Source: Bacteroidales bacterium (lineage in GTDB: Bacteria; Bacteroidota; Bacteroidia; Bacteroidales; PUMT01). From it: 51,036 bases of DNA. Every line of letters starts with the position of its first letter. Position 1 is the stretch's first letter. The position numbers and the translations under genes were made by a program. The stretch is taken from positions 1 to 51,036 of the forward strand of contig SLCF01000004.1 in the NCBI GenBank assembly GCA_007125955.1, in the 5' to 3' direction. The notes beneath the pieces are model-generated. The model searched no databases. It was not told the origin of the DNA and saw only the letters and a program-made list of their open reading frames with translations. Positions 40,943-46,959 of the stretch are shown here, piece by piece.

Positions 40943-41902
40943 TTATTGTAATGGATTGTTTTGCGGCGCCCGTATACGTGACCCCTCTTCCGGTATTTTT
41001 ATAGTATAACTCCTGTTCCTTACATTCAGATAAGGTTTTCTCAGCCAGGGATTGAGAAATTTGAGCATTTTGTAATTTGTGCCGTGCTCCTCGGCGAATG
41101 CAGCAAAATCCTCAATTTTCGAATCTATCTCAACTTCGAAGTATTCTAAGGGCTGATAAAGGTCTGATTTGCGGTATCTGAAACCATAATTGTCCGGATT
41201 TTCCATTATTGTTTTAATAGCTGCAATCCTGAAAACATATCTTGCAGTTTCTTCATTCAGTAAGAGGTCATAGTAATTTTCCACATCCTGGATCCTGATC
41301 TGGTTGTCTACTCCTCTTCTCCCTGCATTATAGGATGCTGCTGCAATAGTCCAGCTTCCGTATTTTTCATACGATTCTTTAAGGAATCTGCATGCTGCTT
41401 CCGTAGATTTTTCCAGGTGGTAACGTTCGTCAACCTCATCTGTGACCATAAGTCCGTACTCCCTTGCAGTGTCTCTTAAAAACTGCCAGTAACCCACTGC
41501 ACCTGCGGGAGATGTTGCATTGGTAATCCCGCTTTCTGCCAGTGCAAGATACTTAAAATCATCAGGCACACCCTCTCTCTGAAGTATTGGTTCGATTACA
41601 GGAAAATACCTGTTTGCCCTCTTGATGAAAAGCAGGGTTTGTGAGTGCCAGTAGGTATTGACCATCAGCTCTCTGTCAAGGCTTTCATATACATCGAAAT
41701 ATTCAAGAGGTAATCTTTCACCTGCAAAATCTACTTCTCCGGGGATATCAAGAGCAAATATTGAATAGCTATTCTTAAATTCCCGGGTATATGAACTCTT
41801 TTCACCTGAATTGAAAAAACTAAAAAGTAACAGAAAAGACGAAAGCAATAAAACAAAAAAAATAAAATATGTAATCCGTTCAAAAAAATTGTGAATCCTC
41901 AT
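40943..41902 (-). CDS. Membrane-anchored lytic transglycosylase (MltD-like)
   Basis: A 319-residue murein hydrolase. An N-terminal hydrophobic segment (about 10-30) anchors or exports it. The SLT domain (about 100-235) has the catalytic Glu in ALAESGI (E123), then SPAGAVGYWQF, the substrate-binding AAASYNAGRRGVDNQI, and YVFRIAAIKTI. The C-terminal 60 residues look like a LysM-type cell-wall-binding module (IEDFAAFAEEHGTNYKMLKFLNPW, RNRSYTIKIPE). It cleaves the glycan strands of peptidoglycan with formation of 1,6-anhydro-MurNAc. The gene stands alone between the uvrA transcript and a 233-bp gap. Confidence 0.9.
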   Translation of the reverse strand: MRIHNFFERITYFIFFVLLLSSFLLLFSFFNSGEKSSYTREFKNSYSIFALDIPGEVDFAGERLPLEYFDVYESLDRELMVNTYWHSQTLLFIKRANRYFPVIEPILQREGVPDDFKYLALAESGITNATSPAGAVGYWQFLRDTAREYGLMVTDEVDERYHLEKSTEAACRFLKESYEKYGSWTIAAASYNAGRRGVDNQIRIQDVENYYDLLLNEETARYVFRIAAIKTIMENPDNYGFRYRKSDLYQPLEYFEVEIDSKIEDFAAFAEEHGTNYKMLKFLNPWLRKPYLNVRNRSYTIKIPEEGSRIRAPQNNPLQ

Positions 41903-42135: not shown

Positions 42136-43485
42136 TTAAAACCTGTAGCGGATCATAGTGGAAAGCCCGAATGAATAAGGATATGAGGTTACTGTCTGAT
42201 CAGGATTGATTGGTGACAGGAAAAAGTTAAATACAGGCTCAAGTGAGATATAAACATCGTTGGTTATGCTTTGCTCTATACCGCCGCTTATCTGTCCGCC
42301 AAAATTAACATCTGTGATGCTTACGGTTTTTCCGATAGGTATTTGCTCGTTAACACGTTGCAAAACAACTTCATTGCCTATCAGAATATTGGCGCTTACA
42401 CCACCTGATATGAAAAATCTGCTGTTTTCATTGTTAAGCAGGTAAAGACGTGCAGTCAATGGTACCTGGAAATAAGTGAACCTCTGTTCAATATTGCCGT
42501 GAATTGGACTGAAACTGGATGCAGATACTTTTTGGAATGTATTACCCGGTTTAGCAGGTATTCCTGTTGCAGTTGTGTTGCCTAAGAAAAAGACTGTAGG
42601 ATTGATTTTTGCTATTGACCCGGTTGAACTTTGAATAGTCAGGGTATTGGTGACCTGGTCGCGTACGGATATTATCTTGTCTTTGTTTGAATATCTTATG
42701 GATTGTCCCATACGAGACAGATGACCTCCAATCTGGATCTCAATATCCGGTGTTAGAAGATATGAAAATGTTATGCCGGGTGATACAGATCCAATTCCAC
42801 TTTCAAACCCGTTAAAATATGCTTTAGGTGTATCGCCGAAAACACCCCCTTTCAGCGTCCTGTATGAATATGCTGAAGTTATATGGAAACCTATATAGAA
42901 ACGATTATCCCTATCTGCCCTTGCTGAGGAACCCCTGTTGATTATTTTTTCGCTTTGCGGAGTTACAATATTTGCAGCGGGGAGGGTTGTTCCCTGGCGG
43001 ATAAGTCCGGCAGGCTCATCTCTGAATTCACCGTAAAGAGCAGCCTGTTTTTTTGCTATCTTTTCAAGATTTTCACTTTCCCTCATAACGGGTTTGCCGT
43101 TTTCTTCTTCACTTTCCGGATGATCAGATGCAGCAATGGTTTCTGCCGGTCTGTCAGATATATCGTTGTCGTTGATTAACCCAGCAAACGTAGGGGATAT
43201 GGCCTCTTCCTGGACAATCACATCCGGCAGGTCTCCCTGGTAAAAGGAAACGGGGCTTTCAGATACAGGTGAAACAAACCTGATCCCGAACAACATTGCA
43301 CCACCTACGGCTATAACCGCTGCAGTTGATGCCGCAACCTTCAGGAAGGCAACTAAACGCCTTCTTCTTTTTTCAGAATTGATGCTGTGAATAATAGCTT
43401 CCCATACCTCATCGGGCGGTGCCTCCTGAAAATGCTCAAGCCCATTCCTGAAAAAACTGTCGATATTTTGGCCTCTATAAGACAC
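42136..43485 (-). CDS. Anti-sigma-like inner-membrane segment fused to a C-terminal outer-membrane-type barrel
   Basis: A 449-residue protein starting at GTG (MSYRGQNID). The N-terminal 43 residues resemble the cytosolic part of Bacteroidota anti-sigma-like proteins (FFRNGLEHFQEAPPDEVWEAI), followed by a membrane segment (about 45-67) after RRRRLVAF. A Glu/Ser-rich linker (about 70-170) leads to a Tyr/Gly-rich barrel-like region (about 175-449) ending SFGLSTMIRYRF with a terminal Phe. The gene overlaps the upstream ECF sigma gene by 11 bp, implying translational coupling and a common regulatory role. How an inner-membrane segment and a barrel coexist is unclear. Confidence 0.8.
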   Translation of the reverse strand: MSYRGQNIDSFFRNGLEHFQEAPPDEVWEAIIHSINSEKRRRRLVAFLKVAASTAAVIAVGGAMLFGIRFVSPVSESPVSFYQGDLPDVIVQEEAISPTFAGLINDNDISDRPAETIAASDHPESEEENGKPVMRESENLEKIAKKQAALYGEFRDEPAGLIRQGTTLPAANIVTPQSEKIINRGSSARADRDNRFYIGFHITSAYSYRTLKGGVFGDTPKAYFNGFESGIGSVSPGITFSYLLTPDIEIQIGGHLSRMGQSIRYSNKDKIISVRDQVTNTLTIQSSTGSIAKINPTVFFLGNTTATGIPAKPGNTFQKVSASSFSPIHGNIEQRFTYFQVPLTARLYLLNNENSRFFISGGVSANILIGNEVVLQRVNEQIPIGKTVSITDVNFGGQISGGIEQSITNDVYISLEPVFNFFLSPINPDQTVTSYPYSFGLSTMIRYRF

Positions 43486-44041
43486 TGCTTTTATATACTC
43501 CTTTTGTTTTTGTGTAAAAATTGTTCACTTTTTCCTGTAATCTGCTCCTTGCTCTGAACAGATGCGATTTAGATGTATTTTCGCTAATGTTCAGCATTTG
43601 AGCTATTTCATTGTGCTTGTATCCCTCAATTGCATAAAGGTTGAAAACTATCCTGTAATTGCGCGGCAACTCCTGTATCATGGAGAGCAAATCTGACTCC
43701 GTCAGGTCTGTTGGAGCATTTGGAAGGTAAAGGTCGTGATTGTCAGGAAAATCATGAACTAAAGGGATCATGAACCTTTTTTTTCTTATGCCCTGGAGTA
43801 CCGAGTTAACAACTATTTTTTTCATCCAGCCTTCAAAAGAGCCTTTTCCCTTGAATTGATAAATACTGCTGAAAATATTCATGAAGGCTTCCTGAAGGTA
43901 ATCCTGTGCTTCTTCATAACTGTAGGCGTATCTCAGGCAAATGGCAAACATCTGGCCGGAATACCGCCTGTACAGCTGCTCCTGTGCTTCTTTCCTTCCA
44001 CGCGCACAGCCTTGCATGATACTTTTGAGTTTGCTCGTCAA
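43475..44041 (-). CDS. ECF-type RNA polymerase sigma factor
   Basis: A 188-residue ECF sigma factor. Region 2 (about 20-90) has YRRYSGQMFAICLRYAYSYEEAQDYLQEAF and FEGWMKKIVVNSVLQ. Region 4 (about 120-175) has YRIVFNLYAIEGYKHNEIAQMLNISENTSKSHLFRAR. The start at 44041 is a TTG (MTSKLKSIMQGC); ATG 44017 (MQGCARGRK) is the alternative. The downstream barrel/anti-sigma-like gene overlaps its stop, so the two are co-translated. The long upstream gap probably holds its promoter, but no good TAnnTTTG box was found close by. Confidence 0.9.
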   Translation of the reverse strand: MTSKLKSIMQGCARGRKEAQEQLYRRYSGQMFAICLRYAYSYEEAQDYLQEAFMNIFSSIYQFKGKGSFEGWMKKIVVNSVLQGIRKKRFMIPLVHDFPDNHDLYLPNAPTDLTESDLLSMIQELPRNYRIVFNLYAIEGYKHNEIAQMLNISENTSKSHLFRARSRLQEKVNNFYTKTKGVYKSSVL

Positions 44042-44586
44042 AATATCCGTATTTTATTAATAAGCTAAATTAATAAAATTATTTATTAAACGAACAAACA
44101 GCACGTCAAATTTTATTTGAAAGAACTTTTTAGTTTTAAAAAACATCCTGTGCAATTGCCAACCTATTTTACACAGGCAATTTTCCGGAATTTAATTGTT
44201 AAAGCATTCGGGCAGGCTGAAATGATAAATAATTCATTGAAAGTTTTCTATTCCCCTCATAATCCTGTAAATTGCCCTTCAAGTAAGGGTGCTGCACTTT
44301 AAGCAAAAACTTTTCCGGTATCGATGCTTTATTAATAAGATGCAAATTATTAATGAAAAGTTGCATCGTTTGTTGATTATCTGTTAATAACATCTTTTTT
44401 CAAAGCAGTTTCTGTAGTAAATGCGGCTTTTTTTTATCAGGGAATTTATACAAAAAGATAGATGACAGGTGTATGCATATGGTTAAATTTTAAGCTCTGT
44501 AGTAAAACAAAATACTGCAATTTTAGTTTTAAATAGTAAAGCAGTTTTATAATGAAAATATAACATTAAATAAATATATCAGTAAG
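44042..44586. other. 545-bp AT-rich intergenic region between divergent genes
   Basis: The region is strongly AT-rich, with TTATTAATAA-type runs near the sigma gene. The longest open frames are about 60 codons, lack start context and resemble no family. I see no tRNA, no strong hairpin terminator, and no exact TAnnTTTG box close to either flanking gene. It probably carries divergent promoters for the sigma gene and the plug-domain gene. Near 44147 an imperfect inverted motif (CCTGTG ... CACAGG) is visible. Confidence 0.5.
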
Positions 44587-46959
44587 ATGAAATATTTAAC
44601 AGGCCTGTTTATTTTGTTGTTTTCCCTTGCAATGACAAGGGGGGAGGATGAAATTCAGCAACTTGCGGAAAATATAAGATATTTTACCGCAGAGACACCG
44701 TCCCAGAAAATTTATTTGCATTTGGACAAGGATCATTATGTTTCCGGAGAGACAATGTGGTATAAGGCATATCTTCTTGACGGGAAAACTCACGAGCTTG
44801 TTTCAGACAGCATTAATCTGTACGTTGAGCTTGTCAACAGCAAGGGCAACCTTTTAAAGCAAAGGTTTCTGAGAGCAAGGGAAGGATTGGCGTGGGGTGA
44901 CTTTGAACTGGAGGACTCAATCCCGGACGGCAACTATCTTGTAAGATCCTATACTATACCTATGAAAAACAAGGGGCCGGAATTCTTCTTTCAAAAGAAC
45001 GTTTACATAAGCAATCCCGATTATACAAACTACATTGCTTTGAACGAACTTTTTTACAACAGGAGGTTCAACAGAAGGCTTGAAAGGATGTCGGACAACT
45101 ACGATATTAAATTTTATCCTGAAAACGGTTCCCTTGTTTCAGGGGTGCCGACAAGGGTTGCTTTCATGGCAAAAAATGAACTGGGGAAGGGAATCGATGT
45201 TGAAGGAGGAGAACTGCTTGACGGCAGCGGTAATAAAATTGCCGAACTCAGTACGATTAATCACGGTATCGGTATCTTTGAAATAACACCTGACTCCCGT
45301 CAGGAATATAAAGCAATGTTTGACCTTGAGGGGTCTCTTTTCCCGCGCACATTTGACCTTCCCCGTGTGAAAGAAGAAGGGGCGGGGCTCAGGGTAAGCC
45401 AGACCCCTGAAAATATCAGGGTGGAAGTAATCAATGGGTACAGAAGTGAGCCTTCTGAAGCAATTTACGTATTAGGGCATGTAAGGGGGAACCTGCTTTA
45501 TGTTAATGAAGTGGAATTTGACGACGGCAGGTTTGTCACGATGATCGATAAAGAAGATTTTCCTGCCGGAGTAGCTCATTTTGCGTTGGTAAGAGACCGG
45601 GAAAAAATTGCCGAACGCCTGTTTTTTGTGAACAACCTGGATAATGTCAGACTCAACACAGAGATGAATGTTATCAGGAGCAGAGAGGGCTCGAAAAATA
45701 TTGAGCTTTTTTTCAGGGACTCCGAAAACAAGCCCGTGGCAGGGAATTTTTCAGTCACTGTTTCCGGAGTATCAAACAATGCAGCAGACCCCTATGATAA
45801 TGCCCTTTCATATTTTCTCCTGAGTTCGGAGTTCGGGGATGTAATTGAAAATCCTGCTCACTATTTTCTTGCTGAAGATGAAGATATGTCAAAAGCCTTC
45901 GATGCGCTGATGATAGCTAAAAGCTGGGAACGCTTTTCGCTGGCAGATGCAATTTCAGGAGACGCACCCGAAATCCAGTTTGAAGACCGTTACGGTATAA
46001 ATGTTTCAGGGACTCTTGTAAATCCGGTCAATGACAACCCGGTTGTTGACCAGTCGGTTCAGCTCAGGGTGCTTAGCGGTTACAATGATACTTATTCCGT
46101 AAAAACTGATGAAGAGGGAAGGTTCTTTTTTGAGAACCTTGTCTATCCCGATTTTGTAACAATTGAGCTGACAACCGCAGCTTTGGAAAACCGCATGAAT
46201 CCGAGACTGAACATTGATACTCCAAAAGACGAGACCCTTGATTACACGAAAAATCTCTATACCAGAAATCAGGATGCCACATCAAGGGGGCCTTCCTGGA
46301 GATTAAAGCTGATCCGGCGCGATCAGGATCCCTACAGGGTGACTCCCGACTTCAAGGAGGCTGCACCGACTTACGGTACACCTGACCAGACTATCTATGT
46401 CGGAGAAAAATCGGAAGATTTCAGGAATATGGTTGACCTGTTACTTGCAAGGGTTACCGGACTGTCAGTGCGGAGTGGGCGGCTCGTTTTCCGGGATGCC
46501 GGCACACTGATGGGGCCTGCTCCCCAACCGATCTTTTTCCTGGACGGAACAGAAGTCGGCGCGAGAGCTTTTCTGAACACCAGCCCCAGGGATGTTTACC
46601 GGATAGAGGTATTCAGAGGTGCAAGTACTGCGATCTTCGGATCCAGGGGAGGAGGAGGAGCTATTCTTGGATACACTAAAAGAGGTGGTATGTATGGCAG
46701 GGATTTCTATGAATACCGCATTGCCGGGTTTTACACTCCACAGGATTTTGAGACTGTTGTTGATCTTACGACAATTGATATGCCTGAACCATTGAGCGAA
46801 AAGACACTTTTGTGGAAACCTGACCTCGAAGTCGGGAGAAACGGAAGGGCGCAGCTCTCATTCAGGACTCCCGCGAAATTCGATCTTTTCCGTGTTACTG
46901 TTGAAGGTGTGGGGGAAAACAGCAAAATCGGGTCAAAAGTGTTTTATATTGAAAGGTGA
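44587..46959 (+). CDS. Exported macroglobulin-like protein with a TonB-receptor plug domain but no barrel
   Basis: A 790-residue exported protein with a signal peptide (1-19). Residues about 35-135 resemble the MG2 domain of alpha-2-macroglobulins (PSQKIYLHLDKDHYVSGETMWYKAYLLDG). A carboxypeptidase-regulatory-like beta domain lies near 470-545 (NVSGTLVNPVNDNPVVDQS, YSVKTDEEGRFFFENL). A TonB-receptor plug lies near 600-695 (RVTGLSVRSGRLVFRDA, FFLDGTEVGARAFLN, YRIEVFRGASTAIFGSRGGG). About 80 more residues follow, with no barrel. Proteins of this architecture accompany TonB systems in Bacteroidota, but I know no demonstrated function. The gene follows an ECF sigma unit on the other strand. Confidence 0.82.
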   Translation: MKYLTGLFILLFSLAMTRGEDEIQQLAENIRYFTAETPSQKIYLHLDKDHYVSGETMWYKAYLLDGKTHELVSDSINLYVELVNSKGNLLKQRFLRAREGLAWGDFELEDSIPDGNYLVRSYTIPMKNKGPEFFFQKNVYISNPDYTNYIALNELFYNRRFNRRLERMSDNYDIKFYPENGSLVSGVPTRVAFMAKNELGKGIDVEGGELLDGSGNKIAELSTINHGIGIFEITPDSRQEYKAMFDLEGSLFPRTFDLPRVKEEGAGLRVSQTPENIRVEVINGYRSEPSEAIYVLGHVRGNLLYVNEVEFDDGRFVTMIDKEDFPAGVAHFALVRDREKIAERLFFVNNLDNVRLNTEMNVIRSREGSKNIELFFRDSENKPVAGNFSVTVSGVSNNAADPYDNALSYFLLSSEFGDVIENPAHYFLAEDEDMSKAFDALMIAKSWERFSLADAISGDAPEIQFEDRYGINVSGTLVNPVNDNPVVDQSVQLRVLSGYNDTYSVKTDEEGRFFFENLVYPDFVTIELTTAALENRMNPRLNIDTPKDETLDYTKNLYTRNQDATSRGPSWRLKLIRRDQDPYRVTPDFKEAAPTYGTPDQTIYVGEKSEDFRNMVDLLLARVTGLSVRSGRLVFRDAGTLMGPAPQPIFFLDGTEVGARAFLNTSPRDVYRIEVFRGASTAIFGSRGGGGAILGYTKRGGMYGRDFYEYRIAGFYTPQDFETVVDLTTIDMPEPLSEKTLLWKPDLEVGRNGRAQLSFRTPAKFDLFRVTVEGVGENSKIGSKVFYIER

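Follow-up and report, generated by a model that had tools for sequence, protein, structure and literature searches.

The ECF sigma factor gene and the partner gene found at 42136-44041 of the window, which is the whole stretch of DNA analyzed here (51,036 nt; contig SLCF01000004.1, positions 1 to 51,036), are a Das-Dma (EcfO-Reo) pair as judged by homology and by the synteny of comparators. The partner is predicted to restrain the sigma factor and to span the periplasm, and a disturbance of its barrel would free the sigma factor to act on an envelope regulon; we assign this reading a probability of roughly 0.8. The window pair is a further example of a published class, rather than a novel chimera or a new kind of sensor. 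In a preliminary description, the partner had been read as a chimera of an anti-sigma-like segment and an outer-membrane-type barrel. The gene pair, the domain order, the helix, the tether, and the barrel were all recovered, in the sequence and in a predicted structure.

The gene pair and its surroundings

Both genes lie on the minus strand. The sigma factor gene, of the putative Das/EcfO type, occupies 43475..44041 and encodes 188 aa from a TTG start at 44041. The partner, a putative Dma/Reo-type anti-sigma factor gene, occupies 42136..43485 and encodes 449 aa from a GTG start at 43485. The sigma gene runs 11 bp into the partner gene (43475..43485, minus strand), exactly as previously described. 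The sigma factor matched Sigma70_r2 and Sigma70_r4_2 in Pfam (PF04542/PF08281), and the broad sigma70-ECF model was the sole one over its cut-off among the best 25 of 104 matches in NCBIfam. No NCBIfam family was assigned to the partner, whose GTG start aligns with the ATG or GTG of its relatives (relatives' starts picked by the analyst).

Upstream of the sigma gene, a block at 44042..44130 (minus strand) is well conserved among three congeners in an alignment judged by eye. It is a candidate promoter/leader and might be an autoregulated promoter of the sigma gene. An SLT lytic transglycosylase gene is located downstream of the pair (40943-41902). A divergent gene (44587-46959) has a TonB plug match over the Pfam cut-off as well as weaker MG2 and carboxypeptidase-regulatory matches. 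By eye, both of these genes recur in both congeners.

Occurrence and conservation of the pair

A match to the partner was obtained in 31 of the 60 genomes searched, the window's own genome included. As the preliminary description had proposed, the same fusion was surveyed beside ECF genes. An ECF sigma ORF was directly upstream of the partner in 26 of 29 loci of relatives (own locus excluded), and the remaining three (L017, L022, and L026) are truncated where the contig or the fetched stretch ends. Since the pair and its gene order recur in 26 of these 29 loci, the pair is not a product of chance. From the sigma side, the named loci were the best 80 of 592 confirmed matches in genome records, the titles of which we take to be those of Bacteroidota; L039 and L055 stop immediately behind the sigma gene. 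In 76 of the 78 untruncated loci, the sigma gene is followed by an ORF whose N-terminal segment (N-segment) is, as judged by eye, of the type seen in the window partner; this count includes L052 and L067, in which the Trp of this segment is missing. No such downstream partner was found in L046 and L096.

For 68 of 69 named pairs, the intergenic gap lay within -25 to +40 bp, and the two genes overlap in 39 of 69 (L096, L114, L115, and L080 excluded). Furthermore, profile A3 of the partner gave matches in at least 53 of 198 sampled genomes of the phylum, with up to eight first-look candidates scored per genome. A single-protein query of a viral collection yielded no relative of the partner.

Compared with two congeners, the identity of the window sequence was 87 and 76% for the sigma factor, 73 and 53% for the N-segment, 54 and 25% for the tether, and 81 and 68% for the barrel. 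In the same comparison, dN was lower than dS in each region where both were computable. The N-segment and the barrel are better conserved than the tether, suggesting that both ends of the protein are kept while the sequence of the tether drifts.

Class of the sigma factor and comparators

Tree reconstruction with 87 sigma factors (L096 excluded) placed the window factor in a group of 79 with a support of 98/99. This group includes the das2-like and the NigD-linked comparators, L163 from Emticicia, and a second sigma factor encoded in the same genome as the window. Eight other sigma-like genes of that genome, obtained by profile search, fell outside the group; they have long branches, two of the matches contain internal stops, and the bootstrap had not fully settled. 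By its place in the tree, from which the class is taken, the sigma factor adjacent to the partner would be of the ECF21 type.

The comparators from gut Bacteroidales (L159-L162) were taken from plasmid records. The L162 locus (B. finegoldii) comprises the sigma gene, a barrel protein, DUF4943, DUF4858, and nitronate monooxygenase. The same gene types are reported around dma2 in B. thetaiotaomicron in the available text of PMC13088901, and L162 was taken as das2-dma2-like because its neighbours fit that description. In L161, an annotated NigD-like gene adjoins the pair, and in L160 we take a divergent lipoprotein-like ORF to be NigD-like. The homology to Dma was thus assessed on comparators identified by their neighbours, in place of the B. 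thetaiotaomicron sequence itself. In hhalign, profile A3 matched the L162 and L161 partners with probabilities of 97.6 and 97.9, respectively, covering the barrel only. Pairwise BLASTP matches between the window partner and the Bacteroides partners were low (E of 3e-4 and 0.001), and the window N-segment was 28% identical to that of L162 (E of 0.001).

The window pair shares with Dma systems the adjacent sigma gene, the homology to the Bacteroides comparators, and the origin from Bacteroidota. Its partner has the Dma-type N-terminal cytosolic segment (motif, W28, and charge), and the model predicts that it has a single N-terminal helix, that its long tether is disordered, and that its C-terminal region folds as a barrel.

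Partners with and without a barrel

A tree of 74 sigma factors was divided according to the type of partner (L096, L067, L078, L102, L163, and the own-genome sequences excluded); 46 have a barrel partner, 17 have a short partner, and 11 have another long partner. None of the 17 short partners (232-326 aa) matched the barrel model at E<1e-20, and they were treated as barrel-less. Ten of them were searched in Pfam, and no accepted domain was found in any. Several of the 11 other long partners match an outer-membrane barrel model, either weakly or over the cut-off. The 17 barrel-less partners belong to the same sigma group, and the barrel is therefore not essential to the class. We infer from these sequences that a sigma-holding module has been joined to different envelope modules.

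A W-x-x-I motif occurs two or three times in the partners L022, L043, L044, L079, L093, and L101, five of which are without a recognised barrel. The window's genome holds a second sigma/anti-sigma pair of the class (L121 3-1329, at the edge of contig C73). The partner of this pair is cut by the contig end and has three copies of the W-x-x-I motif ahead of its helix.

Architecture of the partner

The partner is predicted to consist of four parts, all encoded on the minus strand: a cytosolic segment (residues 1-49; 43339..43485), a single transmembrane helix (residues 50-68; 43282..43338), a disordered periplasmic tether of 122 residues (residues 69-190; 42916..43281), and an 8-stranded OmpA-like beta-barrel with a C-terminal Phe (residues 191-449; 42139..42915). 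Structure prediction of the full chain had been suggested in the preliminary description. The AlphaFold2 model, built from A3 (38 relatives), had a mean pLDDT of 72.8 and a pTM of 0.57, and its barrel is confident.

The tether is charged and mostly has a pLDDT below 50 (71-138 and 151-189). Tether length was surveyed in 94 proteins, which are the window partner, 71 complete named partners, and 22 relatives. L006 and L007 (on the same contigs as L053 and L047), L001 (the window's own locus), L015, L017, L022, L026, and L030 (cut or unclear start), and L067 and L102 (cut) were excluded. A barrel was regarded as clear when it matched the barrel model at E<1e-20, best domain only, and 62 of 94 proteins qualified; the model was derived from A3, and its 39 members match by construction. 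In these 62 clear-barrel members, window included, the distance from the end of the helix to the start of the barrel was 103-266 residues, with a median of 138.5. It was 122-133 residues in the four gut Bacteroidales comparators, for which the barrel start was set by hand. Shorter apparent tethers were seen in three partners with weak barrels, the starts of which are unsure (L027, 87; L090, 76; L068, 60).

A stretched chain extends by about 0.35 nm per residue, and the periplasm is some 20-30 nm wide. Even 103 residues would stretch to some 36 nm, and the 62 members could therefore span it. It had been pointed out in the preliminary description that a single chain of this kind is possible only if it spans the periplasm or if the barrel folds differently. 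The long tether resolves this difficulty in the same way as in the literature, since 122 residues are predicted to be able to span. The tether length of the window partner is consistent with spanning both membranes, and the floor of 103 residues could partly reflect shared ancestry.

Alternatively, the chain may be cut in the periplasm of every cell, with the N-terminal piece being controlled like RseA by intramembrane proteolysis and the barrel serving as a separate outer-membrane protein. A long unstructured tether would be an easy target for a protease, and the siblings without a recognised barrel retain the N-segment, the helix, and a tail. However, a cut protein needs no particular tether length, and the tether is kept at 103 residues or more in the 62 clear-barrel members despite the drift of its sequence. 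This argument is weakened by the three doubtful barrels with tethers of 60-87 residues. On balance, we consider constitutive cleavage unlikely and prefer the intact, spanning chain.

The N-segment contains the motif IDxxFRxxLxxxxxxPPxxVWxxI and has a basic end. The partner has one strongly hydrophobic stretch, residues 50-68, close to the helix at about 45-67 reported earlier; the AlphaFold2 model shows a helix at 8-15 and a long helix at 25-70. Six K/R residues are present in the 17 residues before the hydrophobic stretch, compared to one after it. According to the positive-inside rule, the K/R-rich side of a helix stays cytoplasmic, and the N-terminus of the partner is therefore placed in the cytoplasm. 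K/R residues were commoner before the helix than after it in all 62 clear-barrel members (5.3 versus 1.05 on average).

A second start site after the helix, which had been named beforehand as an observation that would speak against the chimera, was not seen. In-frame start codons are present at 64, 65, 89, and 134. A second exported start is unlikely, because there is no further such hydrophobic stretch between these codons and the barrel.

The N-segment and helix could also be an uncleaved export signal which serves the barrel only and is unrelated to the sigma factor. Sigma binding by the window protein is something we infer, and this leaves some room for such a signal. Against it, W28 is invariant in the 27 rows of alignment A2 and the 39 rows of alignment A3, with L052 and L067 as the named loci without the Trp. 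Moreover, the N-segment is common to barrel-less partners beside the same type of sigma factor, 76 of 78 loci have a partner with this segment behind the sigma gene, and homologues restrain their sigma factors, according to the available text of PMC13088901 and PMC9308784. A mere export signal is thus very improbable. When the sigma factor and the N-segment of a relative were linked and modelled with AlphaFold2, the pTM was 0.41 and the docking was not confident.

The barrel has 259 aa and ends in F; about 270 residues with a final Phe had been estimated previously. PF13568 (OMP_b-brl_2) was the sole Pfam match in the partner (27.8 bits versus a cut-off of 27), and it spans 329-416 of 449 (328-415 of 448). 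In ten-residue blocks, the pLDDT of the barrel was 79-98, except for 261-330 at 47-83. Eight long strands were predicted, at 196-213, 228-243, 248-264, 331-351, 355-377, 393-406, 411-422, and 432-448. In a Foldseek search against PDB, OmpA was the top row (E of 1.8e-9). VIA-align, covering residues about 190-449, gave Z values of 18.9 for a Legionella porin (top), 18.5 for OprF, 17.8 for NspA, 17.4 for OmpA, and 17.7 for the designed transmembrane barrel 6x9z. When profile A3 was searched against the sequences of solved structures, only two chance-level matches were obtained (E of 0.4 and 0.62). Both ends of OmpA-type barrels face the periplasm, which suits a tether on the periplasmic side.

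That the C-terminal region is instead a soluble periplasmic beta domain which never enters the outer membrane is hardly credible: the Pfam score is barely over the cut-off and the designed soluble barrels (two mFAP entries) align well, with Z of 13.0-13.3, but the best VIA-align rows are natural outer-membrane barrels (Z of 16.4-18.9), soluble YceI reached 9.8, and 54 of the 62 clear-barrel members end in Phe. A non-barrel fold, the other structural objection raised in advance, did not appear in the model.

Start codon of the sigma factor gene

Start codons were scanned over the 30 codons before a conserved Cys near the N-terminus (Cys12 in the window) in 96 loci, three of which are without this anchor (L006, L007, and L096 excluded). 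In 50 of 60 barrel loci, TTG or GTG was the only codon available to start the sigma gene; by the last candidate, these were 36 TTG and 14 GTG. In contrast, this was the case in none of the 16 barrel-less loci (14 have ATG and 2 have neither); the count was 4 for 17 other loci. The Fisher value on start codons was 4e-9, which ignores kinship and is descriptive only; few groups contribute the barrel-less loci, and most of these are relatives of Cytophagales, Chitinophagales, and Saprospiraceae. The ten barrel loci scored as having an ATG include the window, in which the only ATG is internal (Met9), and L009 and L010, in which the ATG lies 13 codons upstream of a TTG. The others are L016, L045, L069, L085, L088, L094, and L110. 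The TTG of the window sigma gene is common to both congeners. For the partner genes, an ATG was available at the expected place in 84 of 96 loci.

Among the gut comparators, the sigma gene starts with ATG in L159 and L161 and with TTG in L162; in L160 the start is GTG according to the ORF listing, with an ATG four codons on. It is possible that the weak start is a device which keeps the sigma factor scarcer than its partner. The phrase 'TTG start codon' in combination with sigma terms was not found in the literature among the matches listed, and the weak sigma start of barrel-type loci is possibly unreported.

Discussion

According to the available text of PMC13088901, Dma proteins of Bacteroidota begin with an anti-sigma domain at the N-terminus, continue with a helix and a long disordered tether, and end in a barrel, and their genes adjoin ECF21 sigma factor genes; Das2 is required for the vesiculation phenotype of the dma2 deletion. 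The same layout is described for Phocaeicola vulgatus in the corresponding part of PMC9308784. The protection credited to the active sigma factor is seen in P. vulgatus strains without a functional anti-sigma gene, and the sigma gene was induced 33-fold by the toxin BcpT (PMC9308784). This pair, named EcfO-Reo, is also the most upregulated with bacteroidetocin A (Bd-A) (PMC13114119), which is a BamA inhibitor (PMC9308784). As far as these texts go, the partners of the relatives keep their sigma factors in check and the pair is induced in envelope-damaged cells (PMC13088901, PMC9308784, PMC13114119).

The window pair has the domain order, the adjacent sigma gene, and the Bacteroidota origin in common with Das-Dma of B. 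thetaiotaomicron. Its tether is similar in length to that of the Dma2-like protein of B. finegoldii in L162 (122 versus 125 residues), whereas its barrel is larger (259 versus about 160 residues). The neighbours are different as well, being an SLT transglycosylase and divergent MG2/plug genes in the window but NigD, DUF4943, or DUF4858 for Das-Dma, and the window partner starts with GTG while those of L159-L162 start with ATG. In EcfO-Reo of B. fragilis and P. vulgatus, as described in the available literature, the sigma gene likewise precedes that of an anti-sigma factor, which is predicted to reach from the cytoplasm to the outer membrane. The comparators L161 and, by our reading of an ORF, L160 adjoin a NigD-like gene, unlike the window pair.

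In the RseA/RpoE and FecR/FecI systems, an inner-membrane anti-sigma factor and a cytoplasmic sigma factor are combined with a separate outer-membrane chain. The window pair resembles them in having a predicted inner-membrane anti-sigma factor and a cytoplasmic sigma factor. The difference is that, in the window partner, the outer-membrane part is predicted to belong to the same chain.

For the window protein, sigma binding, insertion into both membranes, the signal, the release route, and the regulon are carried over by analogy from these relatives. The partner would use its N-segment to keep the ECF sigma factor at the inner membrane, which its single helix would cross. The 122-residue tether would cross the periplasm, and the 8-stranded OmpA-like barrel would sit in the outer membrane. 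An outer-membrane disturbance which affects the barrel would release the sigma factor, and the freed sigma factor would then transcribe an envelope regulon. The earlier suggestion of a direct envelope-to-sigma sensor agrees with the published reading of Dma/EcfO-Reo and with the architecture found here, and by analogy the window protein may sense in the same manner.

A more specific form of this mechanism can be offered tentatively, with the odds rather against it. The partner might act as a sentinel client of the machinery for outer-membrane assembly: insertion of the barrel would keep the sigma factor bound, and failed assembly or a lost anchor would free it. At the same time, the weak sigma start and the close or overlapping anti-sigma start would keep the sigma factor below the level of the anti-sigma factor, so that release, not synthesis, would set the response. 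The induction of ecfO-reo by the BamA inhibitor bacteroidetocin A, reported in the available text of PMC9308784 and PMC13114119, fits this proposal without demonstrating it.

The window pair provides a sequence example, from uncultivated Bacteroidales, of the one-chain route from the outer membrane to transcription that was described in gut Bacteroides, and the survey indicates that the pair is present in many other Bacteroidota lineages. The tether floor, the N-in charge signal, and the barrel-less siblings serve as simple tests of the spanning model, and the weak sigma start may be a so far unreported element of the control.
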